Assembly: GCA_021648445.1 (NCBI GenBank)
Contig: JAKISU010000010.1
Location: 1-39,930 of the forward strand
Reading direction: 5' to 3'
DNA: 39,930 bases
Source of the DNA: Flavobacteriaceae bacterium
GTDB taxonomy: Bacteria; Bacteroidota; Bacteroidia; Flavobacteriales; Flavobacteriaceae
In this document: piece after piece, positions 9,079-28,723 of the stretch
How positions within the stretch are numbered: position 1 is the first letter of the stretch
Layout: each line of letters opens with the position of its first letter
Translations under genes and position numbers: made by a program
Notes under the pieces: generated by a model
The model's database searches: none
What the model was told of the DNA's origin: nothing
The model's input: only the letters and a program-made list of their open reading frames with translations

Positions 9079-10647
9079 TTATAAATCAAATTTTATTCCC
9101 TGAGCTAAGGGAAGGTCGGTAGTATAATTAATAGTATTTGTTTGACGTCTCATATAAACTTTCCAAGCGTCAGAACCAGATTCTCTACCACCACCGGTTT
9201 CTTTTTCACCACCAAAAGCGCCACCTATTTCAGCCCCGGAAGTACCAATATTTACATTTGCTATTCCACAATCTGATCCTGCAACAGATAAGAAACGTTC
9301 TGCTTCACGCAAATTATTGGTCATAATTGCTGATGATAAGCCCTGAACAACGCCATTTTGAATTTCAATTGCATTCTCTACATCTCCTGAATATTTTAAC
9401 AGATATAAGATTGGTGCAAAGGTTTCATGTTGTACAATTTCATAGCTATTATCCGCCTCAGCAATAGCTGGTTTCACATAACATCCACTCTCATAGCCTT
9501 CACCGGAAAGCACACCGCCTTCAATAACCAAATTACCGCCTTCTTCAACTACTTTTTTCAACGATTCTTGATACATTGCAACTGCATCTTTATCGATTAA
9601 CGGACCTATATGATTATTTTCATCTAACGGATTACCTATTCGTAACTGTTTATAAGCATCTACAATCGCATTTTTAACGTTATCGTATATACTTTCATGA
9701 ATTATCAATCGGCGTGTTGAGGTACAACGTTGTCCGGCAGTACCAACAGCGCCAAATACAGCACCAATAACTGTCATTTTTATATCAGCATCGGGCGTAA
9801 CTATAATAGCATTGTTGCCACCTAATTCTAATAGTGATCTTCCTAGTCGTTCAGCTACTTTTTGAGCCACAATTTTTCCCATTCTAATGGAACCGGTAGC
9901 AGAAATTAAAGGAACTCGTTTATCTGTAGTCATCATTTCGCCTACACGATAATCGCCATTTATCAAACAAGATATTCCTTCAGGTAAACCATTTTCTTTA
10001 AATACTGTAGCAGCAATATTTTGACAAGCAATGCCACAAAGTGGTGCTTTTTCTGAAGGTTTCCATACACAAACGTCACCACAGATCCATGCAAGTGCTG
10101 TATTCCAAGCCCAAACAGCCACAGGGAAATTAAAAGCAGAAATAATTCCAACCACACCTAATGAGTGGTATTGATCATACATTCTATGACCAAAACGCTC
10201 ACTGTGCATAGTTGAACCATCTAACTGACGCGATAAGCCTACAGCAAAATCACATATATCTATCATTTCTTGCACTTCACCAAGTCCTTCTTGGTAGCTT
10301 TTACCCATTTCATAGGATACTAACTTGCCTAGGGGTTCTTTTAATTCACGTAATTTTTCACCAAACTGACGCACAATCTCTCCTCTTTGAGGAGCCGGCA
10401 TCACTCTCCAGCTTTTAAATGCTGAAGTAGCTGCACTCATCATTTTTTCATAATCTTCTTTGGTCGTTGTTTTTACTTTCCCAATCAATTGTCCGTCAAC
10501 GGGCGAGTAACTCTCTATTGCCTCTCCATTCCGATAGCTATCGGGAGAAAACCATTGAGAACCTGTAGAAGTTCCCTCATTTATATCTTTTACTCCTAAC
10601 TGTTGTAATGCTTTTTCTATACCGAAATCTGTTACTATTAATGTCAT
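9079..10647 (-). CDS. ALDH7-type aldehyde dehydrogenase (antiquitin / aminoadipate-semialdehyde dehydrogenase-like)
   Basis: 522 residues. The NAD-dependent aldehyde dehydrogenase fold is clear: SAFNFPVAVWAWNTA, WKPSEKAPL, ATGS, LLELGGNN with the catalytic Glu, and GTAGQRCTSTRR with the nucleophile Cys at about residue 308. GGAFGGEKETGGGRESGSDA and the C-terminal RRQTNTINYT are typical of the ALDH7 (antiquitin, AmaB) branch, which oxidises alpha-aminoadipic semialdehyde in lysine breakdown. The real substrate is inferred. Residues 35-39 (PDSYR) are encoded by the dispersed palindrome CCCGATAGCTATCGG and look like an in-frame insertion between WFS and NGE. A minus-strand TAATTTTG box (10672-10679) is a possible promoter. 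The gene stands alone. Confidence 0.9.
   Translation of the reverse strand: MTLIVTDFGIEKALQQLGVKDINEGTSTGSQWFSPDSYRNGEAIESYSPVDGQLIGKVKTTTKEDYEKMMSAATSAFKSWRVMPAPQRGEIVRQFGEKLRELKEPLGKLVSYEMGKSYQEGLGEVQEMIDICDFAVGLSRQLDGSTMHSERFGHRMYDQYHSLGVVGIISAFNFPVAVWAWNTALAWICGDVCVWKPSEKAPLCGIACQNIAATVFKENGLPEGISCLINGDYRVGEMMTTDKRVPLISATGSIRMGKIVAQKVAERLGRSLLELGGNNAIIVTPDADIKMTVIGAVFGAVGTAGQRCTSTRRLIIHESIYDNVKNAIVDAYKQLRIGNPLDENNHIGPLIDKDAVAMYQESLKKVVEEGGNLVIEGGVLSGEGYESGCYVKPAIAEADNSYEIVQHETFAPILYLLKYSGDVENAIEIQNGVVQGLSSAIMTNNLREAERFLSVAGSDCGIANVNIGTSGAEIGGAFGGEKETGGGRESGSDAWKVYMRRQTNTINYTTDLPLAQGIKFDL
10529..10546. repeat. Palindrome inside the ALDH gene
   Basis: The core CCGATAGCTATCGG at 10531-10544 is a perfect 14-bp palindrome. 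On the coding strand CCC GAT AGC TAT CGG encodes P-D-S-Y-R, residues 35-39 of the aldehyde dehydrogenase. Same sequence as the intergenic palindrome at 8934-8953. Confidence 0.8.
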
Positions 10648-10671
10648 TTTATGATTCTTTGTGTTATGTTA

Positions 10672-10679
10672 CAAAATTA
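10672..10679 (-). promoter_or_regulatory. Candidate -7 box (TAATTTTG) for the ALDH gene
   Basis: Perfect TAnnTTTG on the minus strand, 24 bp before the start codon at 10647. No clear -33 element. Confidence 0.4.
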
Positions 10680-10717
10680 CAAATTATTACGTATTTGTAG
10701 ATATTTTGTTTTAAATA

Positions 10718-10770
10718 AATTTCTTAAAACGAACTATCCTCGAGGTCCGCCCGTGCCGGTCGGACGGGCA
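10718..10770. repeat. Intergenic repeat unit, copy iii
   Basis: AATTTCTTAAAACGAACTAT, then CCTCGAGG and a GC-rich hairpin with GCCCGT (10749-10754) and ACGGGC (10764-10769). It lies upstream of the ALDH gene in the 499-bp gap 10648-11146. Beyond it the gap holds an ACTTCGACAAACTCAGTAC word (10784-10802), a hairpin ACCTCTCC/GGAGAGGT (10865-10884), two palindromes and a solo MITE end. Confidence 0.45.
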
Positions 10771-10832
10771 GAGCCATAGGAGTATACTTCGACAAACTCA
10801 GTACATGTTTCGTTCGTTTTATACCTAGTCAA

Positions 10833-10850
10833 TCCCAATAGCTATCGAGA
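10833..10850. repeat. Degenerate palindrome TCCCAATAGCTATCGAGA
   Basis: Two mismatches from TCCCGATAGCTATCGGGA. A decayed member of the same family between ALDH and tilS. Confidence 0.45.
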
Positions 10851-10904
10851 AGGCACAAGTTTTGACCTCTCCTCAAGGAGAGGTGAAATCGGAAACCTCA
10901 AGGC

Positions 10905-10922
10905 ATCCCGAGCACTCGGGAT
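10905..10922. repeat. Palindrome ATCCCGAG-CA-CTCGGGAT
   Basis: 8-bp arms around a 2-nt centre. Same subfamily as 1169-1184 and the copy inside pgi. Confidence 0.7.
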
Positions 10923-11063
10923 AGGGAAATTTCTTAGATTAAAATAATATACATTCTTCATATTAGTATACAAGGCATCTTATTGTACTAAAACAGAAGC
11001 CACAAATTCACGAATACTTAAAAACGATCCTTCAACATCGCTCAGAAAGACATTATCTAATTT

Positions 11064-11081
11064 AACGTGAGTTCGACATAA
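11064..11081. repeat. Solo inverted-repeat end related to the 6314-6630 element
   Basis: AACGTGAGTTCGACATAA matches the right end of the 6314-6630 element (read as AACCTGAGTTCGACCTAA) at 16 of 18 positions. No partner end was found nearby. It may be the relic of a deleted element upstream of tilS. Confidence 0.4.
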
Positions 11082-11146
11082 AAAAATATAATCTCAAATA
11101 AAAAAACCTAACGACCAATAACTAAAAAACTTATCTTTACCCCGTT

Positions 11147-12484
11147 TTGTTAACACAGTTTTCTGAACATATCAACATTCATTTTTCTTTTTTAAAAGAC
11201 AAAAAATTACTGATTGCCATTTCCGGTGGATTAGATAGTGTGGCATTAACGCATTTATTTAATCAACTAAACTTTTCCATTTCATTGGCACATTGTAATT
11301 TTCGCTTACGCGGAAAGGATGCAGACCAAGATGAGGTTTTTGTAAAGCAATTGGCTGAACAGTTACAAGTACCTGTTTTTACAAGATCATTTGAAACAGA
11401 AATTGTTGCTAAACAAAAAAAACTATCCATTCAATTAACTGCCAGAAAACTAAGATATGATTGGTTTGATGAACTTACTAAAAAACATAAATTAGATTAT
11501 TTATTGACTGCACATCATGCCGATGATAACTTAGAAACATTTTTAATTAATACTATTAGAGGAACAGGACTAGACGGCTTAACCGGAATACCGGAAAAAA
11601 ACAAAAATATCATCAGACCGTTATTACTCTTTAGTAGAGAACAAATTGAAAACTATGCTAAAGAAAATAATATCGCTTGGCAAGAAGATAGCACCAATGC
11701 AGAAACAAAATATTTGAGAAATAAGATCAGACATGAGGTAATACCAATTTTAAAAGAGTTGAACCCAAGTTTGTTGACCTCATTTGGTCAAACTATTGAA
11801 AATTTAAAAGGAAGTCGCCAAATCATTGATGATAGAATAACTAGAGTAAAAAAAACAGCTGTCATCCCTGCTCCCGATGGCTATCGGGAAGGAATCCAGA
11901 AACTTAGCATAGAGAATCTTAAAAAACTCAACAACCCTAAAGCCTATTTATACGAATTATTAAAAAACTGTGGATTTACAGAATGGAATGATATAACCAA
12001 TCTATTAGAAGCACAATCAGGCAAACAAGCATTAAGCAAAACCCATCGTTTGGTTAAAGACAGAGACTATTTATTGTTGTCCGACTTACTTCCAACAAAA
12101 ACGGAAGAAAAAGCATATAGAATCAAAAAAAAAGATGAAGATTTAGAAATTGAAGATTTTAAACTCAAACTATCAAGTGTAAAAACTCGAAACCTAAAAC
12201 CCGAAACCCAAAACACAACATACGTAGATAAAGACAAATTAAAATTCCCTCTTAATGTAAGAAAATGGAAAAACGGCGACTATTTTTATCCATTTGGTAT
12301 GCAGGGTAAAAAGAAACTAAGCAAGTTTTTTAAAGATGAAAAAATATCTCTCCTGCAAAAGGAAAAAATATGGTTACTTTGCTCAGAAAATCAAATAGTT
12401 TGGATAATCGGTAGGCGATTAGATGACAGATATAAAATAAAAGACACAACAAAAAATATTCTAAAAATAGAAATCATAAAATGA
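11147..12484 (+). CDS. tilS: tRNA(Ile)-lysidine synthase TilS
   Basis: 445 residues. TilS attaches lysine to C34 of tRNA-Ile(CAU), using ATP, so that AUA is read as isoleucine. The PP-loop SGGLDS is at residues 26-31, followed by AHCNFRLRGKDAD and the DYLLTAHHADDNLETFL motif of the TilS/MesJ ATPase core. The C-terminus (FPLNVRKWKNGDYFYPFGMQ, KKLSKFF) is the tRNA-recognition part. The start is TTG at 11147; no ATG is available, since the frame is closed by TAA at 11123 and the PP-loop follows at once. A TATCTTTA -7-like box (11132-11139) puts transcription near the start codon. Residues 243-247 (PDGYR) come from the dispersed palindrome. A repetitive stretch at 12185-12213 encodes KTRNLKPETQN. 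Its TGA overlaps the ATG of dsbD. Confidence 0.93.
   Translation: MLTQFSEHINIHFSFLKDKKLLIAISGGLDSVALTHLFNQLNFSISLAHCNFRLRGKDADQDEVFVKQLAEQLQVPVFTRSFETEIVAKQKKLSIQLTARKLRYDWFDELTKKHKLDYLLTAHHADDNLETFLINTIRGTGLDGLTGIPEKNKNIIRPLLLFSREQIENYAKENNIAWQEDSTNAETKYLRNKIRHEVIPILKELNPSLLTSFGQTIENLKGSRQIIDDRITRVKKTAVIPAPDGYREGIQKLSIENLKKLNNPKAYLYELLKNCGFTEWNDITNLLEAQSGKQALSKTHRLVKDRDYLLLSDLLPTKTEEKAYRIKKKDEDLEIEDFKLKLSSVKTRNLKPETQNTTYVDKDKLKFPLNVRKWKNGDYFYPFGMQGKKKLSKFFKDEKISLLQKEKIWLLCSENQIVWIIGRRLDDRYKIKDTTKNILKIEIIK
11872..11889. repeat. Palindrome TCCCGATGGCTATCGGGA inside tilS
   Basis: Arms TCCCGA/TCGGGA around TGGCTA. It is read in frame as CCC GAT GGC TAT CGG, P-D-G-Y-R, at TilS residues 243-247, in the linker between the ATPase core and the C-terminal domains. 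Same phase as in the ALDH and nitrilase genes. Confidence 0.8.
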
Positions 12485-14493
12485 AGAAGTTATTATATAT
12501 TCTAAGCCTCTTTTTTGTATTTACAACAACCATCAATGCACAGATTTTTGAACCTGTAAAATGGCAAACTTCAGTAGAGAAAGTATCAGAATCTGAATTT
12601 GATTTGGTAGTAACAGCAACTATTGATGAAGGTTGGCATTTGTATTCGCAATCAATTCCAGAAGATGGTCCAATTCCTACTACCTTTAGCTTTAAAGATG
12701 TTGAAGGTAAATATCAATTAGTTGGTAAAACTATTGAAGACAAAGGTCATGAAGAGTTCGATAAAGTATTTGAAATGAATATCAAATATTTTGAAAACAA
12801 AGCAACATTTAAACAGCGGATCAAATTACTAACTGACGAGAAGATTATCATTACAGAAACTGTAGAGTTTATGGTTTGTGACGATGCTCAATGTTTACCG
12901 CCCACTGAAGAAGAAATTAGTTTTACTGTACAAGGAAAAGCAAGTACAGGAAAAATAGATGAAATAAAAAGTACTGAGAATAATAAAGTTAATGGCAGTA
13001 CTAACATTCAAAAGAAAGCTGAAGTTAAAAAAGTTATTGAAACGACACCAAAGGGAAAAAAGCCTAGAAGCTTGTTAGGAATTTTCTTAATAGCCTTTTT
13101 CTCAGGCTTTTTAGCATTACTTACGCCATGTGTATTTCCGATGATACCTATGACAGTAAGTTTTTTTACCAAACAAAGTAAGACGAAAGCAGCAGGAATT
13201 AAAAATGCTCTTATTTATGGACTATCCATTATATTAATTTATGTTGCATTAGGGACAATGGTGTCATACTTTTTTGGTGCCGATGCACTAAATGCACTTG
13301 CAACAAACGTATGGTTTAATATTATTTTCTTCTTATTATTGATAATTTTTGCAATTTCCTTTTTAGGAGCTTTTGAGCTAACACTGCCAAGTTCTTGGGG
13401 AACTAAAGTAGATGCACAAGCTGATAGAGGAGGTATAATAGGAATTTTCTTTATGGCACTAGCATTGGCTATTGTTTCATTTTCTTGTACAGGTCCGATT
13501 GTCGGAACCTTATTAGTAGAAGCAGCTTCCGGTGGGAATCAAATAGGCCCCATTGTTGGAATGTTAGGTTTTTCATTAGCAATAGCCATACCATTTGCTT
13601 TATTTGCAGCATTTCCCGGTTGGTTAAATTCATTACCAAAATCAGGAGGTTGGTTAAATACAGTTAAAGTTGTACTAGGATTTTTAGAACTAGCATTAGC
13701 CTTTAAATTTTTATCAAATGCTGATTTGGTATTACAGTTACATTGGCTGGAAAGAGAAGTGTTTTTAGCCATTTGGATTACAATTTTTGGAGCATTGGCA
13801 TTTTACTTATTCGGAAAAATCAGATTGCCACATGATTCGCCAACTGAACACATTTCAGTAGGGAGATTAAGCTTGGGCTTAATAGTAGTAGCATTTACTA
13901 TTTATTTAATTCCTGGTCTTTGGGGAGCACCATTAAAACTAATAAGCGGTTTCCCACCACCAATGCAGTATAGTGAATCTCCTTATGGAGTCGGCTTTAC
14001 AAGACTGGGTTCAGGAGGAGCTACACATCAAAAATTACCCGAAGATGCTAAATATGGACCACATGATATTATTACATTTTTAGATTACGATAAAGGGTTG
14101 GCGTATGCTAAAGAAGTAAATAAACCAGTATTATTAGATTTTACAGGTCATGCATGTGTAAACTGTCGAAAAATGGAAGAACGCGTATGGTCAGACCCCA
14201 ACGTTTTACAAGTGCTTAAAAATGATATTGTCTTAGTTTCTTTATATGTTGATGATAAACGACCACTACCTGAAAACGAACAATATATATCTGAAACCAC
14301 AGGAAAGAAAATTAAGTCTATTGGTAATAAATGGAGCGATTTTCAGATAAAAAAATACAAAGCTAATGCGCAACCCTATTATGTATTGTTGGATCATAAC
14401 GGAGATAATTTAAACGAATATTCAGCCTATAATCCGAATATTGACAGTTATTTGGCATGGCTTAAAGAAGGTATCGGAAATTTTAAAAAATAA
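12481..14493 (+). CDS. dsbD: DsbD-family thiol:disulfide interchange protein
   Basis: 670 residues. It transfers electrons from cytoplasmic thioredoxin across the inner membrane to periplasmic thiol proteins. A signal peptide (MKKLLYILSLFFVFTTTINA) precedes the N-terminal DsbD-alpha-like domain with the Cys pair in CDDAQCLPP. The membrane core (about 195-480) has Cys 217 in TPCVFPMIPM and Cys 336 in SFSCTGPIVG. A C-terminal thioredoxin-like domain has CVNC at 559-562. All three redox pairs are present, so the cascade should be functional. ATGA overlap with tilS indicates translational coupling. A strong terminator follows. Confidence 0.92.
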   Translation: MKKLLYILSLFFVFTTTINAQIFEPVKWQTSVEKVSESEFDLVVTATIDEGWHLYSQSIPEDGPIPTTFSFKDVEGKYQLVGKTIEDKGHEEFDKVFEMNIKYFENKATFKQRIKLLTDEKIIITETVEFMVCDDAQCLPPTEEEISFTVQGKASTGKIDEIKSTENNKVNGSTNIQKKAEVKKVIETTPKGKKPRSLLGIFLIAFFSGFLALLTPCVFPMIPMTVSFFTKQSKTKAAGIKNALIYGLSIILIYVALGTMVSYFFGADALNALATNVWFNIIFFLLLIIFAISFLGAFELTLPSSWGTKVDAQADRGGIIGIFFMALALAIVSFSCTGPIVGTLLVEAASGGNQIGPIVGMLGFSLAIAIPFALFAAFPGWLNSLPKSGGWLNTVKVVLGFLELALAFKFLSNADLVLQLHWLEREVFLAIWITIFGALAFYLFGKIRLPHDSPTEHISVGRLSLGLIVVAFTIYLIPGLWGAPLKLISGFPPPMQYSESPYGVGFTRLGSGGATHQKLPEDAKYGPHDIITFLDYDKGLAYAKEVNKPVLLDFTGHACVNCRKMEERVWSDPNVLQVLKNDIVLVSLYVDDKRPLPENEQYISETTGKKIKSIGNKWSDFQIKKYKANAQPYYVLLDHNGDNLNEYSAYNPNIDSYLAWLKEGIGNFKK

Positions 14494-14518
14494 AATAGTG
14501 TAACTATTATTTATAGAA

Positions 14519-14556
14519 AGACCTGACAGGTTTTGGAAACCTGTCAGGTCTTTTTT
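14519..14556 (+). terminator. Terminator after dsbD (AGACCTGACAGGTTT hairpin)
   Basis: AGACCTGACAGGTTT (14519-14533) pairs perfectly with 14537-14551 across a TGG loop and is followed by five more T. A textbook intrinsic terminator. The hairpin is also a dispersed repeat (compare 9045-9077). Confidence 0.85.
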
Positions 14557-14574
14557 AACAATAAAAAAACAAGT

Positions 14575-14582: not shown

Positions 14583-14601
14583 TACATCAATTAATACTAC
14601 A

Positions 14602-15552: not shown

Positions 15553-15570
15553 TTCTTACGTATTAATATA

Positions 15571-18701: not shown

Positions 18702-20276
18702 ATGCCATTAAAGAATCAAAATCCAACAAAAACTAAAGCTTGGGAAAAACTCCAAGAATCATATCAAGAGCTTAAAAACATTGATATGAAAACCTTGTTT
18801 TTAAATGATGTTCATAGAAAAGAAAAATATACCTTAACATTTAATGATTTTAACCTAAATTTCTCAAAAAATAGAATAAACGATGCAGTTTTACAACAAC
18901 TACTTGAATTAGCAAATGAAGTTGATTTAAAAGACGGAATAAAAAAAATGTTTTCAGGCGATATTATAAACGCTACTGAAAATAGAGCAGTTTTACATAC
19001 TGCTTTACGTAATAAATCCGGCAATGCAGTATTGGTCAATGGTAAGAATATAATGCCTGAAGTAGAAGCATCTCTTAAAAAAATGAATAGTTTTTCCGGC
19101 AGTGTTATTTCAGGTAAATTAAAAGGGTATTCAGGTAAGGCATTTACCGATGTTGTTAATGTTGGTATTGGCGGTTCTGATTTAGGCCCGAGAATGGTAG
19201 TAGATGCTTTGCAGTATTATAAAAATCATCTAAAAACACATTTCATATCGAATATTGACGGAGATCACATTTCGGAAACCTTAAAAGAACTAAACCCGGA
19301 AACCACACTTTTTGTAATTGTTTCAAAGACCTTTACCACTCAAGAAACCTTGACGAATGCTGAAACTATCAAAAAATGGTTTTTATCCCGAGGACTCGGG
19401 AGCAAAGAAACGGATATCAAACACAATTTTGTGGCAGTTTCTACCAATTTAGAAAAAGTAGCCGATTTTGGCATCGCTCAAGAAAACATTTTTACAATGT
19501 GGGATTGGGTAGGCGGTCGTTATTCTTTATGGAGCGCTGTAGGTTTATCTATTAGTTTAGCATTAGGCTTCGACAATTTTAATAAATTGTTGACAGGCGC
19601 TTATGAAATGGATGAACATTTTAAAACAGCACCTTTTCAAAAAAATATGCCTGTTATATTGGCATTGATAAGCATTTGGTATAATAATTTTTTTAATACA
19701 GAATCTGAAGTTGTCATTCCGTTTTCACAATATTTAACGCAGTTAGTACCTTTTTTACAGCAGCTTTCTATGGAGAGTAATGGAAAATCTGTCGATAGAA
19801 ATGGCAATACAATTGATTATCAAACAGGCAATATTATTTGGGGTAATACAGGCACTAATGTACAACATGCTTTTATGCAATTGGTACATCAAGGTACTAA
19901 ATTAATTCCTGTTGATTTTATCGGGTTTTCTAATTCGTTATATGGCAATAAAGAACATCATGAGAAGTTAATGGCTAATTTTTACGCTCAAGCGGAAGCA
20001 TTATATTTAGGTAAAACAAAGGAAGAAGTACATTTAGAGCTAAAGGTTGCTAATAATCAAGATAAAATAGAACAATTACTCCCTTTTAAGGTTTTTCAAG
20101 GTAATAAACCTTCAAACACTTTGGTAATAGATAAATTAAGTCCCAAAAACTTAGGATCTCTTATCGCTATATATGAACATAAAACTTTTGTACAAGGTTA
20201 TATTTGGAATATTTTCAGTTTTGACCAATTTGGGGTGGAGCTAGGTAAAGAATTGGCAAAAACACATCTACAATAA
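18702..20276 (+). CDS. pgi: Glucose-6-phosphate isomerase
   Basis: 524 residues, slightly short of the 545 or so of enterobacterial Pgi. It interconverts glucose-6-phosphate and fructose-6-phosphate in glycolysis and gluconeogenesis in the cytoplasm. VGIGGSDLGPRMV, FVIVSKTFTTQET, FTMWDWVGGRYSLWSAVGL, IWGNTGTNVQHAFMQLVHQG with the catalytic Glu/His neighbourhood, and the final FSFDQFGVELGK with the conserved Lys are all family signatures. Residues 229-234 (SRGLGS) are encoded by the palindrome at 19386-19401, apparently inserted into a surface loop after KKWFL. A weak hairpin follows the stop codon. Confidence 0.95.
   Translation: MPLKNQNPTKTKAWEKLQESYQELKNIDMKTLFLNDVHRKEKYTLTFNDFNLNFSKNRINDAVLQQLLELANEVDLKDGIKKMFSGDIINATENRAVLHTALRNKSGNAVLVNGKNIMPEVEASLKKMNSFSGSVISGKLKGYSGKAFTDVVNVGIGGSDLGPRMVVDALQYYKNHLKTHFISNIDGDHISETLKELNPETTLFVIVSKTFTTQETLTNAETIKKWFLSRGLGSKETDIKHNFVAVSTNLEKVADFGIAQENIFTMWDWVGGRYSLWSAVGLSISLALGFDNFNKLLTGAYEMDEHFKTAPFQKNMPVILALISIWYNNFFNTESEVVIPFSQYLTQLVPFLQQLSMESNGKSVDRNGNTIDYQTGNIIWGNTGTNVQHAFMQLVHQGTKLIPVDFIGFSNSLYGNKEHHEKLMANFYAQAEALYLGKTKEEVHLELKVANNQDKIEQLLPFKVFQGNKPSNTLVIDKLSPKNLGSLIAIYEHKTFVQGYIWNIFSFDQFGVELGKELAKTHLQ
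19386..19401. repeat. Palindrome TCCCGAG-GA-CTCGGGA inside pgi
   Basis: 7-bp arms with a 2-nt centre, read as TCC CGA GGA CTC GGG AGC (S-R-G-L-G-S, residues 229-234). Same subfamily as 1169-1184 and 10905-10922. Confidence 0.75.
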
Positions 20277-20280
20277 AAAT

Positions 20281-20592: not shown

Positions 20593-23500
20593 ATGAAAAA
20601 AATTACTAAATTATTAATGGTAATGTTATGTTTTGTCATGACATCTGCCATGTATGGACAAGGGGTTACCACCTCTTCACTAAACGGTAAAGTTCTTGAT
20701 AATAACGGAGATCCTTTACCGGGAGCTAATGTAGTTGTAATACATACCTCTTCAGGAACAAAGTATGGCTCGGCAACAGATTTTGACGGTTTATTCAGAA
20801 TCTCAAATATGAGAGTTGGTGGACCATATACTATTACAATTTCTTATATAGGATTTAATGACTTTGTAAGAAGCAATGTTTCTCTTCAATTAGGGCAAAC
20901 ATTTAGAGTCAACGCTACAATGGTTGAAACTGCCAATGCCTTAGAAGAAGTCGTAATTACGACTCAAACTAATAATATTTTTGATGGAAATAAAACAGGT
21001 ACAGGAATAACTATTAGTCAAAGAGAAATAGCTACTATTGCAGCAGCATCACGTTCGATTGCTGATTTTGTCAGATTAACTCCTCAAACTCAAATCACTG
21101 AAGGAAATGATGGTTTTTCAATATCAATTAGTGGTCAAAACAATCGTTTTAATTCAATCTATATTGATGGTGCTGTAAATAATGATGTATTCGGTTTAGC
21201 CGGCTCAGGAACTAATGGAGGTCAAACCGGGGTTAGTCCTTTTTCAATCGATGCCATTGAACAATTTCAAGTAAACATTGCTCCGTTTGATGTTAAAATA
21301 TCAGGTTTTACCGGAGGTGCTATTAGTGCGGTTACTCGTTCAGGAAACAATAATTTTGAAGGATCTGCATATTATTTTACGAGAAATGAAAGTTTTGCAG
21401 GTAAAACACCTCCTGATTTAGCATTCGGTAACGAAAGAACTAGATTAGGAGATTTTTCAGCAAAAACTTATGGAGTTAGAATTGGAGGTCCTATTGTAAA
21501 AGACAAATTATTCTTTTTTGTTAATTATGAACGACAAGATGAAGAAACTCCTCAGCCTTTTAATGCAAATTCTTATATCGGAGATTCTGATGCTGCTGCC
21601 CTAACAACTTTAAGAAATTTTGTGAATACAACGTATAATTATGATATTGGCAATTTTGACAATGCTTTAAGGACACTAGTGAGTGATAAGATAACGGCTA
21701 AACTAGATTGGAATATAAGTGACCAACACAAATTATCTTTAAAGCATACTTACGTTCAGGGAGATAACTTAGAGACTAGAAATTCAAGTGCTAGAAGCCT
21801 TGCTTTTTCTAATGGCTCAGAAGCTTTTTTAACGAAAACAAACACTAGTTCATTAGAATGGAGTTTTCAAGGCAATAAAATTTCTAACAATTTATTGTTA
21901 GGATATACACAAGTAAGAGATGATAGAGACCCAAGCGGAAACCCTTTCCCTTCTGTATTTATTGGTGATGGTTTAAACCCTTTTGCTTTCCAAGGAATTT
22001 TATTTGGTGCAGAACCATTTTCAACAGCAAATTTATTAGACCAAGACGTATTTACTATTACAAATAATTTTCAAATTTATAAAGGAGTTCATACTATAAC
22101 CATAGGTACTCACAATGAGTTTACCAAAATAAAAAACTTGTTTTTCCCATATAATTATGGTAGATATATGTACAATTCTATTGATGAATTTATAACTAAT
22201 GCCCCTGCATTTAGATACGAAAGAGGATATTCATTATTGAGTTCTGGAGCAGGAGATACTTCTTCGGGAGCTGCAGAATTTAATACAAAGCAATTTGGTT
22301 TATATTTTCAAGATGAAGCTCAAGTATCAGACAATGTAAAAATCTCAGTTGGTGTTCGTTTTGATATGCCTATATGGGAAGACGGAGCTGTAAATGATGA
22401 TTTTAATAATAGAACAATCCCTTTATTAGAAGCAGAAGGTATAGACTTAAGAGGTGCTAGAGTAGGAAAAGGATTATCAAATAGAGTTTATCTGTCACCT
22501 AGAGCAGGGTTTAACTGGAATGTAAAAGGTGAAAACAAAACTCAAATACGTGGAGGGATAGGTATTTTCACCTCAAGACTTCCTTTTGTTTGGCCGGCTG
22601 GTACGTACAATAATAATGGTATAACAGGAGGGTTTGCCGTAATTAGAAATAGTGCTGTTTTTAACCCTGATGTAAATAACCAACCTGTAGATGCAGTACC
22701 GGGAACAGGTGAACTAGGAGGTAATGTTGACTTATTTGCTCCTAATTTTAAGTTACCTCAAGTTGTTAAATATAATTTAGTAATTGACCAAAAATTACCT
22801 TGGGGGGTAACTGCTTCTGCCGATATTATATATAATGATAATCTAAGTGCAGTTTATTATGAAGGGCTTAACATAAGAGGACCTGTTGGTAGTTTAAATG
22901 GAGCAGATAACAGACCTGTATATTCAACATCGGCAATTGATAGAACATACCAAAGAATAACCTTAGCATACAATACTACTAAAGGTAATTCATGGAATAC
23001 ATCTTTTACTTTACGTAAGAATTTTACTGCAACAGATAAGTTTAAAGTATATTCTTTAGCAACATACTCTTATGGTGATGCTAATGTAATTTTTGATGCT
23101 ACTTCATCTCAAAACAGCTCTCAATGGAGAAATCAACAATCTGTAAATGGTAAAAATTCTGCCTTACCAGTAACAAGATCTGATTTTTCACAAGGACATA
23201 GAGTTTTCACGAATTCAAGTTTTGAATTTAACTGGAGTGATAATTTAAAAACAACTTTAGGGTTTTTCTATGATGGAACTCAAGGTCGACCATTCTCCTA
23301 TATTTATGGTTCAAGTGATAGATCAAGGTTATTAGGTGATGACTCTAGAGATAATGCATTGTTTTATGTACCTGCAAATGCTTCTGAAATTAATTTAATT
23401 GATTTAGATAATGGAGGTACTATTATTACTGCTGCTGAACAATGGACAGCACTTGATAATTATATTGAAAGTAATGAATACCTTAGAGAGCGCAGAGGTC

Positions 23501-23835
23501 AATATACTGAAAGAAATGGTGATAGAGGTAGATGGAGTCATGTTGTTGATTTAAAATTTATTCAAGACTTTTCAATAAACGCTTTTGGTAAGAAGCAAAC
23601 GCTTCAATTTACTGCTGATATTTATAACTTTACAAACTTAATTAATAAAGATTGGGGTAAACGTTATTTTACTAGAAATGTTACCATTGTTAATGTTGAA
23701 AATGGTAGAGGGGATATTAATCCTGAATTTAATTTTGATCCAAATAGAACAGTTGTTACTAACCAATTAGATGACAGAGGCATTCAAAGCTCAAGATGGC
23801 AAATGCAAATTGGGTTGAGGTACTTATTTAACTAA
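20593..23835 (+). CDS. Oar-like TonB-dependent receptor
   Basis: 1080 residues. A signal peptide (MKKITKLLMVMLCFVMTSAMYG) is followed by a carboxypeptidase-like beta-sandwich (about 28-115: SSLNGKVLDNNGDPLPGANV and onward). A plug domain follows (about 130-260: FVRLTPQTQITEGNDGFSIS, then YIDGAVNNDVFGLAGSG). A large beta-barrel follows, ending in GLRYLFN. Length, TGGAISAVTRSGNNNFEGS and the barrel style resemble the OmpA-related (Oar) receptors of Bacteroidota. The ligand is unknown; no SusD or DUF4249 partner is adjacent, so it appears to be monocistronic. A strong hairpin terminator is shared with the convergent metalloprotease gene. Confidence 0.88.
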   Translation: MKKITKLLMVMLCFVMTSAMYGQGVTTSSLNGKVLDNNGDPLPGANVVVIHTSSGTKYGSATDFDGLFRISNMRVGGPYTITISYIGFNDFVRSNVSLQLGQTFRVNATMVETANALEEVVITTQTNNIFDGNKTGTGITISQREIATIAAASRSIADFVRLTPQTQITEGNDGFSISISGQNNRFNSIYIDGAVNNDVFGLAGSGTNGGQTGVSPFSIDAIEQFQVNIAPFDVKISGFTGGAISAVTRSGNNNFEGSAYYFTRNESFAGKTPPDLAFGNERTRLGDFSAKTYGVRIGGPIVKDKLFFFVNYERQDEETPQPFNANSYIGDSDAAALTTLRNFVNTTYNYDIGNFDNALRTLVSDKITAKLDWNISDQHKLSLKHTYVQGDNLETRNSSARSLAFSNGSEAFLTKTNTSSLEWSFQGNKISNNLLLGYTQVRDDRDPSGNPFPSVFIGDGLNPFAFQGILFGAEPFSTANLLDQDVFTITNNFQIYKGVHTITIGTHNEFTKIKNLFFPYNYGRYMYNSIDEFITNAPAFRYERGYSLLSSGAGDTSSGAAEFNTKQFGLYFQDEAQVSDNVKISVGVRFDMPIWEDGAVNDDFNNRTIPLLEAEGIDLRGARVGKGLSNRVYLSPRAGFNWNVKGENKTQIRGGIGIFTSRLPFVWPAGTYNNNGITGGFAVIRNSAVFNPDVNNQPVDAVPGTGELGGNVDLFAPNFKLPQVVKYNLVIDQKLPWGVTASADIIYNDNLSAVYYEGLNIRGPVGSLNGADNRPVYSTSAIDRTYQRITLAYNTTKGNSWNTSFTLRKNFTATDKFKVYSLATYSYGDANVIFDATSSQNSSQWRNQQSVNGKNSALPVTRSDFSQGHRVFTNSSFEFNWSDNLKTTLGFFYDGTQGRPFSYIYGSSDRSRLLGDDSRDNALFYVPANASEINLIDLDNGGTIITAAEQWTALDNYIESNEYLRERRGQYTERNGDRGRWSHVVDLKFIQDFSINAFGKKQTLQFTADIYNFTNLINKDWGKRYFTRNVTIVNVENGRGDINPEFNFDPNRTVVTNQLDDRGIQSSRWQMQIGLRYLFN

Positions 23836-23854
23836 TAATTTATTATAAATAAAT

Positions 23855-23881
23855 AAAAAACCCGCAAATTGCGGGTTTTTT
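23855..23881. terminator. Bidirectional terminator between TonB receptor and metalloprotease genes
   Basis: AAAAAACCCGCAA pairs with TTGCGGGTTTTTT around a minimal loop, with an A run on one side and a T run on the other. It serves the converging genes ending at 23835 and 23886. Confidence 0.85.
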
Positions 23882-23885
23882 ATGC

Positions 23886-24989
23886 TTAAAAATTACTAAC
23901 CCATTCTTGATAACAGTCTCCTACAGGATTCCCATAATCATATTCACAATATTCACGAGTTATATCTGTTAGAAAATACCTATTTCCACTTCCACTAGAA
24001 ATAGTTTTTGTATAGTTTGAAGTTGTTGTCTGTCCAGCTGATTGACCTTCCGTGAATAGAGTTTTGATAGAATATTTAACTGTGGCCGGCAAACTTAAAG
24101 GAGTTGTGTAACTACCATTAGTATAAAGTTTTACATAAACATCATCTACTCGTTCAAAAGTATCCGGGTCATAAGAATTGTAAACATTTTCATACTCAAC
24201 TTTTACAGAATATGGGAATAAATATTGTGCAGCTATAATGTCGTAAGTTGAAAAACTGTTCCAAGTAAAAAGTGCAGTGCCTCCATTCATAACAGAATTA
24301 GAATCTCCATTTGGTGTTCCTGGAATTGTGTTAGCACTATATTCATTTTGTGAGTCCCAATTAGTATGTCTTAACCCGATACAATGCCCTAATTCATGAA
24401 CCATATTATACCTTTTACTTCCTTCACTAACATTAATATTAAGAAAATCAAGATTTACAAGCACGGTATTATAGGGGTTGCCATTTGAAGGAAAGCCTGC
24501 TGAAGCAACAACATTATTTGGGAGTGCACCATTATCAGATTTGATTGTTATATCAGCATTAGAGTTAGTTGATAAATTAAAATAAACCGATGAACCAGAA
24601 ATACTATTCCAATCATTAATTGCTGAACTAATTGCTGTTCTCCAATTATCTTGCCCTGAACTTGGCATTGAATTATCTATATAAACAGAAATATTAGTCT
24701 TAGTCAAGTCTAATAAATTACTGTTATTAACGGCTTGTTTAGTAAAGGTATCTGAAATAGCTGGATAGTCTTTTATGTTTTTTGAAAACATTAAATCTCC
24801 TTCAACTAAAAAAAAATCATCATATTCCTTTATCATCTCTCTATCATACCCCATTGCTACTAGCTTTGCAATTACAGGGCTTTGATCTTGATTAAGGGAG
24901 GAATCTTGAGGAATAAACACCTCATCTGTGTTTTGACATGAAAATAAAAACAATACAGAAATAACGAATAAAAGTTTTAAATACTTCAT
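23886..24989 (-). CDS. M57-type zinc metalloprotease lipoprotein (HEIGH family)
   Basis: 367 residues from ATG 24989. MKYLKLLFVISVLFLFSC is a lipoprotein signal with Cys 18; an upstream ATG at 25043 would place 18 extra residues before it and is rejected. The middle of the protein has MVHELGHCIGLRHTNW, a HExxHxxGxxH zinc motif of the metzincin-like type found in peptidase family M57 (dual-action HEIGH metallopeptidases). A Bacteroidota-type TYDIIAAQYLFPYS segment follows where a Met-turn-like region is expected. The C-terminal 110 residues are beta-rich with two Cys near the end. Probably a secreted, surface-anchored protease; substrate unknown. Confidence 0.82.
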   Translation of the reverse strand: MKYLKLLFVISVLFLFSCQNTDEVFIPQDSSLNQDQSPVIAKLVAMGYDREMIKEYDDFFLVEGDLMFSKNIKDYPAISDTFTKQAVNNSNLLDLTKTNISVYIDNSMPSSGQDNWRTAISSAINDWNSISGSSVYFNLSTNSNADITIKSDNGALPNNVVASAGFPSNGNPYNTVLVNLDFLNINVSEGSKRYNMVHELGHCIGLRHTNWDSQNEYSANTIPGTPNGDSNSVMNGGTALFTWNSFSTYDIIAAQYLFPYSVKVEYENVYNSYDPDTFERVDDVYVKLYTNGSYTTPLSLPATVKYSIKTLFTEGQSAGQTTTSNYTKTISSGSGNRYFLTDITREYCEYDYGNPVGDCYQEWVSNF

Positions 24990-25141
24990 AATAATAATGT
25001 TTAGATTAATACTGCTTTTAGTATAAGTGATTAAAGAATACAAAGCAATAGTGAAAATGGGTAATTTTAAAAATACCTAAAAACCATGATTAGCAAGGTT
25101 TAATCTATTATATAACAGTAAATTTTATACATAAAATTCAC

Positions 25142-25149
25142 TACATTTG
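25142..25149 (+). promoter_or_regulatory. Predicted -7 box (TACATTTG) for the small membrane protein
   Basis: Perfect TAnnTTTG, 24 bp before the ATG at 25174. Confidence 0.5.
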
Positions 25150-25173
25150 CTCAAATCAAAATAGCTACATACC

Positions 25174-25602
25174 ATGATAAAAATGATTCACTCTTATTGG
25201 GCATATCTAGCAATATTACTATTAATTATAGCAGTTATAAATGCGATAATTGGCTTAACTCAAAACAAGAAATTTTCAGCTAAAGATTTAAGAATATCTT
25301 TATTTACATTAATAGTTATGCATATTCAACTTTTAATTGGGTTGGGTTGGTATTTTATGTCACCGGCTTATAAAGTGCTAAAAGCAAGTGGAATGGGAGT
25401 AACGATGAAAGATAGCGCATTACGATTATTGGCCGTAGAACACCCTTTAATGATGCTACTTGCCATTATTTTTATTACTATAGGTTGGTCTAAACATAAA
25501 AAACAAACTACTGATAAAGGAAAATTTAAAACCATTACAATCTTTTACGGATTAGCATTGTTATTTGTATTGAGTAGAATTCCTTGGACACAGTGGTTTT
25601 AA
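25174..25602 (+). CDS. Small four-helix membrane protein, cytochrome b-like
   Basis: 142 residues with four hydrophobic segments (about 9-27, 44-64, 89-107 and 122-138). His residues lie in or near the membrane (H6, H50 in VMHIQLLIG, H90 in VEHPLMMLL, and H108 after the third helix). Such conserved His in a four-helix protein suggests haem ligation, and homologues in Flavobacteriia are often labelled cytochrome B, but the function is not established. Translation could begin at ATG 25174 or at the ATG three codons later. It lies alone, convergent with the four-helix-bundle gene. Confidence 0.65.
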   Translation: MIKMIHSYWAYLAILLLIIAVINAIIGLTQNKKFSAKDLRISLFTLIVMHIQLLIGLGWYFMSPAYKVLKASGMGVTMKDSALRLLAVEHPLMMLLAIIFITIGWSKHKKQTTDKGKFKTITIFYGLALLFVLSRIPWTQWF

Positions 25603-25620
25603 TTGATTTAAGAACAACGA

Positions 25621-25998
25621 TTAACGATTTTTGAGGTTTGAATTATTATTTTTTGAAGTTTTTATGCTAGCGACAAAAATTGAGATCAATTGATTGTTTT
25701 CATCCAATGCTTTTTCTAAGTTTTCTTGATTTCCAGAATAAAGATTTGCTCTATTAATAATTTTTAAGCAATTAAAACTTTCTCTCAGTTCTTTAAGGCA
25801 AATACTCATTTTATGAACAAAATCTTTATGAGACTCTGCGCTTCTTGCCTCTCCATAATTTAATGCAGGTGACCCAGAAGACCGAATTAGCTGATTACCG
25901 TAGTAATTAGCTGCATAATTAGTTTTGAGATTATTACAAATACTAATAATAAGAACTGAAAAATCAATTATTCTATCTTCTAAATCATTAGTTTTCAT
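25621..25998 (-). CDS. Four-helix-bundle protein (S23/IVP family)
   Basis: 125 residues, almost entirely helical. DLEDRIIDFSVLIISICNNL, then YGNQLIRSSGSPALNYGEA, HKDFVHKMSICLKELRESF and a fourth helix correspond to the four helices of PF05635, first known from intervening sequences in 23S rRNA genes. In Bacteroidota these genes occur dispersed on chromosomes. They form pentameric bundles; the function is unclear. A second, clearly different paralogue is inside the sdh operon (32913-33290). Confidence 0.8.
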   Translation of the reverse strand: MKTNDLEDRIIDFSVLIISICNNLKTNYAANYYGNQLIRSSGSPALNYGEARSAESHKDFVHKMSICLKELRESFNCLKIINRANLYSGNQENLEKALDENNQLISIFVASIKTSKNNNSNLKNR

Positions 25999-26042
25999 AA
26001 ATCATTCTATTTTAAGTTCTACAATTGTCAATCATTAACCCG

Positions 26043-26058
26043 CCTGCCGGCGTGCAGG
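26043..26058. repeat. GC-rich palindrome CCTGCCGGCGTGCAGG
   Basis: CCTGC and GCAGG arms. Same family as 7977-7996, in the gap between the four-helix-bundle gene and plsC. Confidence 0.55.
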
Positions 26059-26120
26059 TCGTTATTCGTTAATTTTTTTACTAAAAATGATTAATAGATT
26101 ATTCAATAATTAATACAATA

Positions 26121-26912
26121 TTGTATATTAGACTTGTCATTTTATCAAAAAAGAGACATTTACATCAAAAACTAATTTTGAAACTAATTTTACCTTATAT
26201 TTTATCTACTATTTACTATCTGTTTTTTCATTTTGGATTACTTTTTTTTCATGGTTTACAATGGATAGCATATAACTTAACAGGCTATAAAGGACATAAG
26301 TGGGTTGTAGATATGATGAATGGTTATCTGACCAGCTGTTTATATATTTTAGGTACTCGAATTACGTTTATAAATAGACATCAGCTCCCTAAAAATGTGC
26401 CATTAATAATAGTATCTAATCATCAAGGCTTGTACGATATTTCTCCTATTTCTTGGTTTTTTCGAAGGTTTCATCCAAAATTTGTTTCTAAAAAAGAATT
26501 AGGTAAAGGCATTCCAAGTGTTTCATATAACTTAAGACATGGAGGCTCAGTATTGATTGACAGAAAAGATGCCAAGCAATCTATAACAACCATTATAAAT
26601 TTTGGCAAATACATTGAAAAGAATAACTATACTGCTGTAATTTTTCCGGAAGGAACTCGAAGCAAAACGGGTAAACCGAAACCGTTTTCAGCCGCGGGAT
26701 TAAAAGTACTGGCTAAATTTTCTCCATCATCTTATGTTATACCTATGACTATTAATAACTGTTGGAAGTTAGCGAGAAAGGGAAAGTTTCCTTTGGCAAT
26801 TGGACAACATATTACATTTGAAATTCACAAACCAATTAAAGCAACATCGTTAAAGTTTGAAGATTTACTTGAGAAAGTTGAAAATACCATTAAAAATTCT
26901 ATAATTTTGTAA
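26121..26912 (+). CDS. plsC: 1-acyl-sn-glycerol-3-phosphate acyltransferase (PlsC family)
   Basis: Up to 263 residues. PlsC enzymes add the second acyl chain to lysophosphatidic acid at the inner membrane. The hydrophobic N-terminus (ILPYILSTIYYLFFHFGLLF) is followed by the acyltransferase blocks NHQGLYDISPI (catalytic NHxxxxD) and VIFPEGTRSKTGKP, with GGSVLIDRKDAK between them. The start is uncertain: no ATG is available, and the longest frame begins at TTG 26121. A TAGACTTG -7-like box at 26129-26136 favours a later TTG at 26178, giving 244 residues. The downstream acyl-ACP desaturase suggests a joint role in membrane lipid composition. Confidence 0.85.
   Translation: MYIRLVILSKKRHLHQKLILKLILPYILSTIYYLFFHFGLLFFHGLQWIAYNLTGYKGHKWVVDMMNGYLTSCLYILGTRITFINRHQLPKNVPLIIVSNHQGLYDISPISWFFRRFHPKFVSKKELGKGIPSVSYNLRHGGSVLIDRKDAKQSITTIINFGKYIEKNNYTAVIFPEGTRSKTGKPKPFSAAGLKVLAKFSPSSYVIPMTINNCWKLARKGKFPLAIGQHITFEIHKPIKATSLKFEDLLEKVENTIKNSIIL
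26878..26909 (+). promoter_or_regulatory. Predicted promoter of the acyl-ACP desaturase gene
   Basis: TTG at 26878-26880, 21 bp, then TAATTTTG (26902-26909), a perfect TAnnTTTG, all inside the end of plsC. It gives a short leader before ATG 26932. Confidence 0.5.
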
Positions 26913-26931
26913 ACTCATTAAAACAAAAAAG

Positions 26932-27927
26932 ATGTCATTACAAAATATCAGATTAGAGGTTATGCAAACACTTGAAAAAAATATCAACCTGTTTGTAGAT
27001 AAATTCCTTATTAGTCCAGAAAAAATCTGGCAACCGACAGATTTTTTACCCAATTCTCAAAGCGATAATTTTATAGATGAGGTTGAAGAAATAAGAGAAA
27101 TATCTAAAGAATTAGATGATGATTTTTGGGTAGTTTTGGTAGGTGATACTATCACCGAAGAAGCTTTGCCAACCTATGAATCATGGTTGCTTGATGTTGA
27201 AGGTGTTTCGCAACATAATAGCGAAGGAGGCGATAATGGCTGGGCTAAATGGATACGAGCATGGACAGGAGAAGAAAACAGACATGGAGATGTATTGAAT
27301 AAATATTTGTATTTATCCGGTAGAGTAAATATGCGTGAAGTTGAAATTACTACCCAACATTTAATTGCTGATGGCTTTGATATTGGTACCGCTCGTGATC
27401 CTTATAAAAACTTTGTTTACACCAGTTTTCAAGAACTTGCAACCTATATTTCACATAATAATGTAGCAAAAATTGCTAAAGAAAAAGGACATAAATTATT
27501 GGCAAAAATGTCTAAAATTATTGCAGGTGATGAAATGCGTCATCATTTAGCATATGTTGAATTTGTAAGACAGATATTTAACTATGATCCAAGCGAAATG
27601 ATGTTGGCTTTTCAACAGATGATGAAACATAAAATAGTGATGCCTGCGATGCATTTAAGAGAGTCATTTGAAGCCAAAGGAACACTTTTTGACCAATTTT
27701 CAGTAGTAGCACAACGAGCAGGTGTGTATACAGGTTTTGATTACGTAAGTATCATAGAAAAACTAAACAATGCTTGGCAAATTGATAAAATTTCTGGTCT
27801 AACTGCCGAAGCAGAAAAAGCTAGAGATTATTTGATGAAATTGCCTGAGCGGATGTATCGTATTACAGAACGTATAATTATACCTGATACTAAGTTTGAA
27901 TTTAAATGGATGAATCCGATAAGTTAG
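26932..27927 (+). CDS. Acyl-ACP desaturase (stearoyl-ACP Delta-9 type)
   Basis: 331 residues. This soluble di-iron enzyme introduces a double bond into acyl chains bound to acyl-carrier protein. The di-iron ligands are visible: WTGEENRHGDVLNKYL carries the first EENRH motif and IAGDEMRHHLAYVEF the second DEMRH motif, spaced as in plant-type and mycobacterial DesA desaturases. Oxygen and a ferredoxin are the expected partners. It follows plsC by 19 bp with its own promoter, so the two may be co-regulated for control of membrane fluidity (inference). Confidence 0.9.
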   Translation: MSLQNIRLEVMQTLEKNINLFVDKFLISPEKIWQPTDFLPNSQSDNFIDEVEEIREISKELDDDFWVVLVGDTITEEALPTYESWLLDVEGVSQHNSEGGDNGWAKWIRAWTGEENRHGDVLNKYLYLSGRVNMREVEITTQHLIADGFDIGTARDPYKNFVYTSFQELATYISHNNVAKIAKEKGHKLLAKMSKIIAGDEMRHHLAYVEFVRQIFNYDPSEMMLAFQQMMKHKIVMPAMHLRESFEAKGTLFDQFSVVAQRAGVYTGFDYVSIIEKLNNAWQIDKISGLTAEAEKARDYLMKLPERMYRITERIIIPDTKFEFKWMNPIS

Positions 27928-27928
27928 T

Positions 27929-28723
27929 TTACTGTATAATTTTAAAGACATCACCATCATCTAAAAATCGAAATTTTTCTCTACTGTTTTTTATATGAGT
28001 AGCATTTAACGTAATTATTTCTGTGTGCACTTTGTCGGATTGAATGTTAGAAATTTCATTTCCTAAAGTATCAAAAACAGCAGAATTACCTGTATATTCA
28101 TAACCATTAATATCTAAACCAACCCTATTTACTCCAATACAGTAACTCATATTCTCTATGGCTCTGGCTTTTAATAACGTGCTCCAAGCATTAATTCTGG
28201 GTTTTGGCCAATTGGCAACATAAATAAGCAGATCATAATTTTCTACATTTCTTGCCCAAACAGGAAAACGAAGATCATAACATATTAATGGACAAATTTT
28301 CCACCCTTTATAATCAATAATCAGTTTTTTATTTCCTGCTGTATAGACTTTATCTTCACCAGCCAAGGTAAAAGTATGCCGTTTGTCATAAGTTTGAATT
28401 TCACCGTCCCGATTGCTATCGGGAGGAAACACAAAAACCAAGCGATTATAATAGTTGTTATCTTCTTTAATAATTAAACTTCCGGTAATGGCTGTATTTT
28501 TTTGTTTTGCAATGTTTTTAAGCCATAACATTGTTTTGTCTTCCATAGTTTCGGCTACTTCAGCAGGGTTCATTGTAAAACCTGTGCTAAACATTTCCGG
28601 CAATATAATTAAATCTACTGTTGAAGAAATCGCATCAATTTTTTCAAGGAAGTTAATCCTGTTTTGTTCCGGGTTTTCCCAAACTAATTCAGATTGTACG
28701 AGTACTACTTTTAAATCTTGCAT
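27929..28723 (-). CDS. Nitrilase-family omega-amidase (YafV/Nit2-like)
   Basis: 264 residues. Carbon-nitrogen hydrolase fold with the catalytic triad Glu (ILPEMFSTGF), Lys (YDKRHTFTLAGED) and Cys (CPLICYDLRFPVWARN). It is likely to hydrolyse alpha-ketoglutaramate or related omega-amides, as YafV and Nit2 do. It overlaps the upstream methionine aminotransferase gene by 13 bp; such aminotransferases use glutamine and produce the ketoglutaramate that this enzyme would remove. Residues 101-105 (PDSNR) are encoded by the dispersed palindrome at 28407-28424, apparently inserted between VFP and DGE just before the catalytic-Lys segment. Confidence 0.88.
   Translation of the reverse strand: MQDLKVVLVQSELVWENPEQNRINFLEKIDAISSTVDLIILPEMFSTGFTMNPAEVAETMEDKTMLWLKNIAKQKNTAITGSLIIKEDNNYYNRLVFVFPPDSNRDGEIQTYDKRHTFTLAGEDKVYTAGNKKLIIDYKGWKICPLICYDLRFPVWARNVENYDLLIYVANWPKPRINAWSTLLKARAIENMSYCIGVNRVGLDINGYEYTGNSAVFDTLGNEISNIQSDKVHTEIITLNATHIKNSREKFRFLDDGDVFKIIQ
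28407..28424. repeat. Palindrome TCCCGATTGCTATCGGGA inside the omega-amidase gene
   Basis: Arms TCCCGA/TCGGGA. On the coding strand CCC GAT AGC AAT CGG encodes P-D-S-N-R, residues 101-105, the same phase as in ALDH and tilS. Confidence 0.8.

Follow-up and report, generated by a model that had tools for sequence, protein, structure and literature searches.

Palindromic repeats that lie in frame within unrelated protein genes have been described as Rickettsia palindromic elements (RPEs), and short, high-copy, mostly intergenic hairpins, some of them within open reading frames (ORFs), as repetitive extragenic palindromic (REP) elements or REPtrons (TnpA_REP, RAYT) (PMC3733652). In this work we describe a hairpin of 16-18 bp found in a 39,930-nt stretch of DNA from a Flavobacteriaceae bacterium (positions 1 to 39,930 of contig JAKISU010000010.1, assembly GCA_021648445.1; hereafter, the window), which is dispersed, inserts with the loss of few target bases and lies in frame in several proteins. 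RPEs are much longer, roughly a hundred bases, and belong to a different phylum, whereas the present hairpin usually contributes five residues; moreover, we know of no tRNA/GIY-YIG arrangement, such as the one presented below, for RPEs. The likeness to these elements had been proposed in a reading of the window made from its letters alone (the sequence-only reading), which also remarked that the unit is far shorter, and it is fair as regards the outcome, in-frame insertion into protein genes.

Tiny mobile hairpins are also known from fungal mitochondria, as double-hairpin elements or GC clusters, in genomes that also host GIY-YIG genes, but these are organellar and differ in sequence. Free-standing GIY-YIG homing endonuclease genes have in common with our loci the GIY-YIG domain and, following their homing logic, a target gene that is partly duplicated while an intact copy is kept; here, unlike in those systems, the targets are bacterial tRNA genes, and in the spare tRNA piece a hairpin substitutes for a loop. 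HIP1 is likewise an iterated palindrome, found in coding as well as non-coding DNA. It is an 8-bp word tied to methyltransferases (PMC4390886), whereas our hairpin is 16-18 bp long, uneven in copy number and inserted. Compared with REPs, the hairpin is shorter, no RAYT-like gene was found flanked by it, and it lacks a fixed GT[AG]G, the foot tetranucleotide ascribed to REPs (PMC6006769). In summary, the outcome resembles that of RPEs and REPs, but the tests that define REPs and miniature inverted-repeat transposable elements (MITEs) failed. We found no description of this hairpin in the open-licence literature, judged by the titles and the beginnings of the abstracts of the matches listed. To our knowledge, it would rank with the shortest DNA units for which repeated insertion has been observed.

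The hairpin and its copies

The palindrome noticed in the sequence-only reading is real, its length being 18 bp and not the 15 bp proposed: the flanks of the copies in the window and in the rest of its own genome define the unit TCCCGAT-AGCT-ATCGGGA (TCCCGATAGCTATCGGGA), even though the net gain in coding genes is usually 15 bp. The window contains four matches to CCGATNGCNATCGG (at most one mismatch; CCGAT-N-GC-N-ATCGG), versus a mean of 0.01 in shuffled windows, and they are the four sites that reading had listed. One is intergenic (8935-8952, unstranded, in a 20-bp palindrome at 8934-8953), and three lie within genes: that of an aldehyde dehydrogenase of the ALDH7/antiquitin type (9079-10647, minus strand; hairpin at 10529-10546, minus strand, one outer base changed), tilS (11147-12484, plus strand, the name being kept from the earlier reading and orthologues compared; hairpin at 11872-11889, plus strand, loop GGCT) and a carbon-nitrogen hydrolase gene of the omega-amidase/nitrilase family (27929-28723, minus strand; hairpin at 28407-28424, minus strand, loop TGCT on the plus strand). 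With the tetraloop AGCT the hairpin becomes a perfect palindrome, and the 18-mer is one form of a wider family of 16-18 bp. With this family the count in the window rises from four to eight, the additions being 16-bp hairpins: one with loop GGAC (19386-19401, plus strand) in a glucose-6-phosphate isomerase gene which, from its sequence family, we take to be pgi (18702-20276, plus strand), and three intergenic, unstranded ones, at 1169-1184 (loop GTAC; two candidate empty sites have TATTTA instead), 5379-5394 (AGCG) and 10906-10921 (GCAC).

In what follows, G-numbers denote genomes of the genus, G000 being the window's own (3.07 Mb in 213 contigs, 85% complete), and L-numbers the DNA stretches extracted for analysis. 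G000 contains 69 core copies, 54 of which, including the four of the window, were read individually, against none of the reversed control pattern. The exact 14-mer core is present 61 times in G000, 11, 7, 2 and 1 times in four other genus genomes, and is absent from 12 of the other 16. At the level of the family, 108 of 397 genomes (own included) carry the exact 18-mer and none the reversed control, with the highest counts being 57 (own), 53 and 39. The repeated palindrome is thus confirmed, and so is its expected genome-wide excess over a control. A collection of 84,980 species genomes yielded at least 118 stretches with the 18-mer, and 117 of the 118 listed belong to Bacteroidota by organism name; the chance expectation, assuming an even base composition, is about 4 in 257 billion bases. 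The 18-mer was also detected on 37 stretches of viral contigs.

The sister form TCCCGA-N4-TCGGGA is more abundant, with 103 copies in G000 and 47, 39, 34 and 32 in four relatives; it is present in 15 of the 17 genus genomes (0 to 103 copies), the reversed control giving 0 except for 1 in G009. Neither the 14-mer core nor the sister form occurs in G001 and G008. A portion of a cobalamin riboswitch (L378) fits the sister pattern too, so that a few of these counts may be riboswitch hairpins instead of insertions. In 300 kb of G000 (the window and the first parts of five large contigs, four of them known beforehand to carry copies), arms of the TCCCGA family were the commonest G+C-rich hairpin arms (22 of 120), and among the top five arms of the same length of shuffled sequence none repeats. 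The outer two bases deviate from TC/GA in 28 copies, and 15 of these retain complementarity in both outer pairs, which points to the paired form.

Conservation of a functional word under selection, whether HIP1-like, a terminator or a protein-binding site, could be argued from the identity of the 18-mer across the phylum and from the presence of the 16-mer family in nearly all the genus genomes. We consider it very improbable, given the uneven copy numbers of both the 14-mer core and the 16-mers cited above and the location of copies in unrelated enzymes and tRNA pieces. A Rho-independent terminator was rejected, since T-runs are rarer directly after the stem (18/470) than 30 nt further out (42/470).

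Palindromes also grow by nesting. In L088, L004, L084 and L093 we observed nested forms, for example two TCCCGATAG units per arm of one hairpin, and among these stretches tandem TCCCGA units stand beside others.

In-frame gains and the bases replaced

The residues assigned by the sequence-only reading, PDSYR from residue 35 of the aldehyde dehydrogenase (35-39), PDGYR from 243 of TilS (243-247) and PDSNR from 101 of the omega-amidase (101-105), were right, and its proposal that the five codons are an in-frame extra holds for the aldehyde dehydrogenase and the nitrilase. In the former, exactly five residues fewer are found in 13 of 14 genus orthologues (one paralogue and the second piece of one gene being left out), with G012 carrying PDSYR at the same place; in the latter, all 14 genus orthologues and the protein of PDB entry 2e11 are exactly five residues shorter. 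The nearest relative compared is 84% identical over five proteins. Outside the window, gltX behaves in the same manner (exactly five fewer in 13 of 14 orthologues, the remaining one having its own longer loop), as do asnB (five fewer in 14 of 15, G012 carrying them) and the gene of a GlcD-like FAD/FeS protein (five fewer in 8 of 13 and four fewer in 4, with the insert again in G012). For the 16-mer in pgi the net gain is two residues with respect to the seven nearest orthologues and three with respect to six others. The corresponding region of tilS is too variable among orthologues to call an insertion, and because the flanks of its hairpin resemble the common GTCATTCCTGC...GCAGGAATCCAG repeat, this insert may be compound; in murB (L093), variability likewise prevents a count of residues. 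A viral-contig ORF (L358/L442) has a 68% identical relative, L443, which lacks in frame 30 bp comprising the palindrome and flanking bases; two viral-contig ORFs with the palindrome, used as queries, gave no palindrome-free relative.

The single reading phase claimed earlier applies to the three genes of the window; elsewhere in the genome a second phase, encoding PIAIG, is used as well. Ten copies in own-genome loci lie well within ORFs of at least 150 aa; seven of them are read as PDSYR-like peptides (PD.xR) and three as PIAIG. The third phase holds a TAG and cannot occur in an open frame, so that its absence tests no selection.

The three inserts that G000 and G012 have in common (aldehyde dehydrogenase, asnB and GlcD-like) could suggest that the five residues are an ancestral feature which other lineages have lost, the more so as these two genomes are not paired in a tree of 12 genomes built from five genes (p-AU 0.037; 0.067 with G010 added). 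This idea is scarcely credible: precisely this palindrome would have had to disappear from each of several unrelated proteins in almost every relative, and the idea is contradicted by the amidase and gltX inserts, which among the genus genomes searched are found in G000 only. The three common inserts are more probably due to transfer between lineages, recurrent hits or an incorrect tree than to an old insertion that was later lost.

The nature of the event was read from empty sites, that is, places whose flanks are alike, with at most two mismatches per 14-bp flank, but which contain no whole palindrome; such places were found in the DNA examined for 47 of 226 distinct copies. Eleven filled/empty pairs were excluded, their "empty" form consisting of a palindrome, nested or decayed. 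This left 36 pairs, some of which are not independent of each other. The hairpin took the place of 3 bp in 13 of them (in one case at a single one of four empty sites); losses of 6 bp were seen in 9, chiefly from families of hairpin repeats, and losses of 5, 4 and 2 bp in 6, 4 and 1 pairs, respectively. In three pairs at least 10 bp were replaced. For the 16-mers, 81 copies were examined, and 4 to 6 bp were replaced in 16 of the 25 having a candidate empty site. From these comparisons, the event is a replacement in which few target bases are lost, the 18-mer most often giving a net gain of 15 bp, also outside genes. The interpretation as in-frame insertions is therefore partly supported: the five-residue gain stands, and what was taken for a pure 15-bp insertion is an 18-bp hairpin that replaces about 3 bp. 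The empty sites prove insertion, and core genes such as that of glutamyl-tRNA synthetase have been hit with their frames staying open, making the hairpin a natural source of short in-frame protein insertions.

Preferences in the flanks are weak (n=189): T just before the hairpin in 7 copies, A just after it in 7, a pyrimidine (Y) at -3 in 134 and a purine (R) at +3 in 148. Matches of 4 bp between the two flanks were found in 10 of 189 copies, versus 0.94 in shuffles, several of them, by eye, within repeats of 7-bp period.

Three candidate explanations of these junctions were discarded. A target-site duplication, the signature of a MITE or transposon, does not agree with the replacement seen at the empty sites, and the loss of 3 bp within 7-bp-period repeats gives the same match. 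For an insertion sequence with TCCCGATAG ends, 45 half-sites were located in 1.33 Mb, mostly decayed palindromes, and no long inverted pair was seen by eye. Regarding a loop derived from the target, the 16-mer loops resemble the replaced bases weakly, by eye.

A short, high-copy, mostly intergenic hairpin brings to mind the REP elements that Y1 tyrosine transposases (RAYTs) move, all the more so because REPs inside ORFs are known (PMC3733652). G000 has six Y1_Tnp matches, other hairpin-bearing genus genomes also have matches, and for one IS200-like gene, in L244, a 16-mer stands on one side at some 220 bp from the Y1 match, two other such genes, in L245 and L255, having none. This explanation is nevertheless improbable: G016, a 99% complete genome with 11 core copies, has no Y1_Tnp match; the RAYT-like matches in L380-L388 have no TCCCGA hairpin in the surrounding 2 kb, or as far as the stretch extends; in L380 it is another hairpin, CCTACAAGGT...ACCTTGCAGG, that flanks the RAYT-like gene; and no fixed GTAG-like or GT[AG]G tag exists at six flank positions per side in 189 copies. 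That RAYT-like Y1 gene (L380:2317-3218; G000 C108) has at least three CCTACAAGGT...ACCTTGCAGG hairpins on one side and one on the other, an arrangement that is REPtron-like.

Truncated tRNA genes and GIY-YIG frames

In a number of loci, truncated tRNA genes in which a loop (the D-, variable, anticodon or T-loop) holds the hairpin adjoin an intact tRNA gene of the same kind. In 11 of them (L071, L099, L125, L140, L203, L209, L215, L239, L376, L379 and L398) a GIY-YIG ORF accompanies the intact tRNA and the hairpin-bearing pieces, the distance from the edge of this ORF to a hairpin being 0-28 bp in all 11, at different tRNA genes and in different genera. L071, from G000, and L099, from G016, consist of a 5' piece of tRNA-Asn whose D-loop contains the hairpin, the GIY-YIG ORF and an intact tRNA-Asn. 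In L203 the upstream stretch and 5' end of tRNA-Phe are duplicated and the D-loop is replaced; L125 has a tRNA-Met 3' piece, with the variable loop affected, and comprises two tandem units; L140 has tRNA-Pro and tRNA-Thr pieces; L215 involves tRNA-Leu, at the T-loop and D-arm; and L376 and L379 involve tRNA-Asp. In L239 (Gillisia limnaea) the tRNA-Asn copies carry hairpins and two are still called tRNA by ARAGORN, while L209 (Flavobacterium soyae) follows the same plan at tRNA-Val with TTCCGAT arms. The most elaborate array, L398 (G009), contains an intact tRNA-Phe and then a tandem row of four 377-bp GIY-YIG units; behind each unit stands a tRNA 3' piece whose T-loop has been replaced, with one arm base changed in the fourth.

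Three of the proteins were scanned and matched the Pfam family GIY-YIG (PF01541) with E values of 5e-14 to 3e-11; the other ORFs match these or their profile. A profile built from 13 ORFs, whose seeds came from the first search, retrieved 21 GIY-YIG ORFs, all within the 1,804 kb fetched for hairpins, and none in 950 kb (0.95 Mb) fetched for other reasons. Nineteen of the 21 are within 150 bp of a hairpin, under a hairpin pattern that was loosened after L209, and such stretches make up 111 kb of the 1,804 kb; counted by locus, with tandem copies merged, the figure is 13 of 15. In addition, tRNA sequence was detected within 70 bp of at least 17 of 330 distinct hairpins by blastn, which misses L071 and L398. 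Together, these data make it likely that the hairpin is tied to truncated tRNA copies and to this GIY-YIG gene family.

As the mover of the hairpin we consider a small stand-alone GIY-YIG nuclease the likeliest candidate, with a confidence slightly below even odds. The miniature hairpin, of the form TCCCGA(T)-four-base loop-(A)TCGGGA, inserts across Bacteroidota replacing few, most often 3, target bases; in the scheme proposed, the nuclease would cut a structured or tRNA-like target, and the hairpin would be put in at the break or would arrive as the end of an element. Solitary hairpins would then represent cuts or insertions away from tRNA genes, and within genes only frame-preserving events would survive, leaving PDSYR or PIAIG peptides at tolerant places. 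The hairpin would perhaps spoil the cut site, thereby serving the element. The hairpins and their spread, the in-frame gains, the minor loss of target bases and the tRNA/GIY-YIG arrangement are observed; the role of the nuclease, the supply of the hairpin sequence and its benefit to the element are inferred. Extended to the phylum, and with a little more reserve, the picture would be that of a new type of mobile system in which stand-alone GIY-YIG nucleases home into Bacteroidota tRNA genes and the hairpin seals or disarms the displaced tRNA piece, afterwards spreading alone and adding five-residue peptides.

Several observations weigh against a role of the nuclease in moving the hairpin. The number of target bases lost is not constant (2 to 6 bp, more in some cases) and fixes no single reaction, and there is no known source for the hairpin sequence at the break. 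All 15 GIY-YIG loci come from stretches chosen for their hairpins, the 950-kb control being small and mostly gene-centred. No GIY-YIG ORF was found in the 300 kb of G000 that hold 22 hairpins, and few hairpins have one nearby. At least six hairpin-bearing tRNA pieces (L069, L103, L113, L119, L157 and L229) are without an intact GIY-YIG gene in the stretch extracted, although that of L069 adjoins what appears, by eye, to be a decayed one. Finally, the GIY-YIG ORFs of L089 and L395 adjoin other repeats and not the TCCCGA hairpin.

These same facts, namely the distance of most hairpins from GIY-YIG genes, the variable target loss and the tRNA pieces that lack the nuclease gene, together with the 18-mers on viral contigs, favor a different explanation: the hairpin would be a mobile or scar sequence left by host or phage activity (break repair, template switching or a reverse transcriptase), and the GIY-YIG genes would merely co-lodge at tRNA hot spots. 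We regard this as a serious but rather doubtful alternative, because the close spacing of hairpin and GIY-YIG frame recurs in every one of the 11 tRNA-linked loci, with varied tRNAs and genera, and because an arm of 6-7 bp that is constant across the phylum requires a template or a binding protein. If, on the other hand, the link to the GIY-YIG nuclease were true, a candidate mover would be named for abundant hairpin repeats without a transposase, and the spread of such repeats would become testable at the bench on one protein, the 96-residue product of L071.

Searches of viral contigs, plasmids and phages did not find the GIY-YIG protein. Two viral contigs (L331:4837-4854 and L348) contain tRNA-like sequence with the 18-mer in the D-loop, and ARAGORN calls no tRNA in either. 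By eye, the GIY-YIG gene of L395 (8532-8831) lies between copies of the dispersed repeats TTGCTTCGTCGC/CCTCGCAATGACG, and that of L089 (22-339) between copies of CTGAACTTGTTTCAG/CTGAAACAAGTTCAG; from these two loci, more repeat families may have GIY-YIG partners. A further GIY-YIG ORF (L167:6472-6864) is located inside a putative transposase gene, this identity being a guess, bounded by CCCCGTTACAA and TTTGTAACGGGGC.

Repeats and genes beside the hairpins

TCCCGA hairpins at L380:5474-5506 and L380:7576-7608 lie within the loop of a different dispersed hairpin, ATTCCTGC-loop-GCAGGAAT, whose loop has about 4 bases at other sites. In L101:1342-1640 (G016), a Bacteroidales small signal recognition particle RNA gene (Rfam RF04183) is followed by two 18-bp hairpins within 180 bp. 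L381:20-262 (G000 C114) contains a repeat of about 36-45 bp in four copies, spaced at 66 bp, in which a CRISPR array probably ends.

In the window, positions 514-1184 and 4982-5394 contain two closely similar starts of what is presumably a DedA-like membrane protein gene (215 aa, and a truncated one of 118 aa), each preceded immediately by a 16-bp hairpin. Positions 8984-9080 and 10712-10945 correspond to other dispersed intergenic repeats, which have many copies in G000, G010 and G015 and are paired about 150 bp apart at several places.

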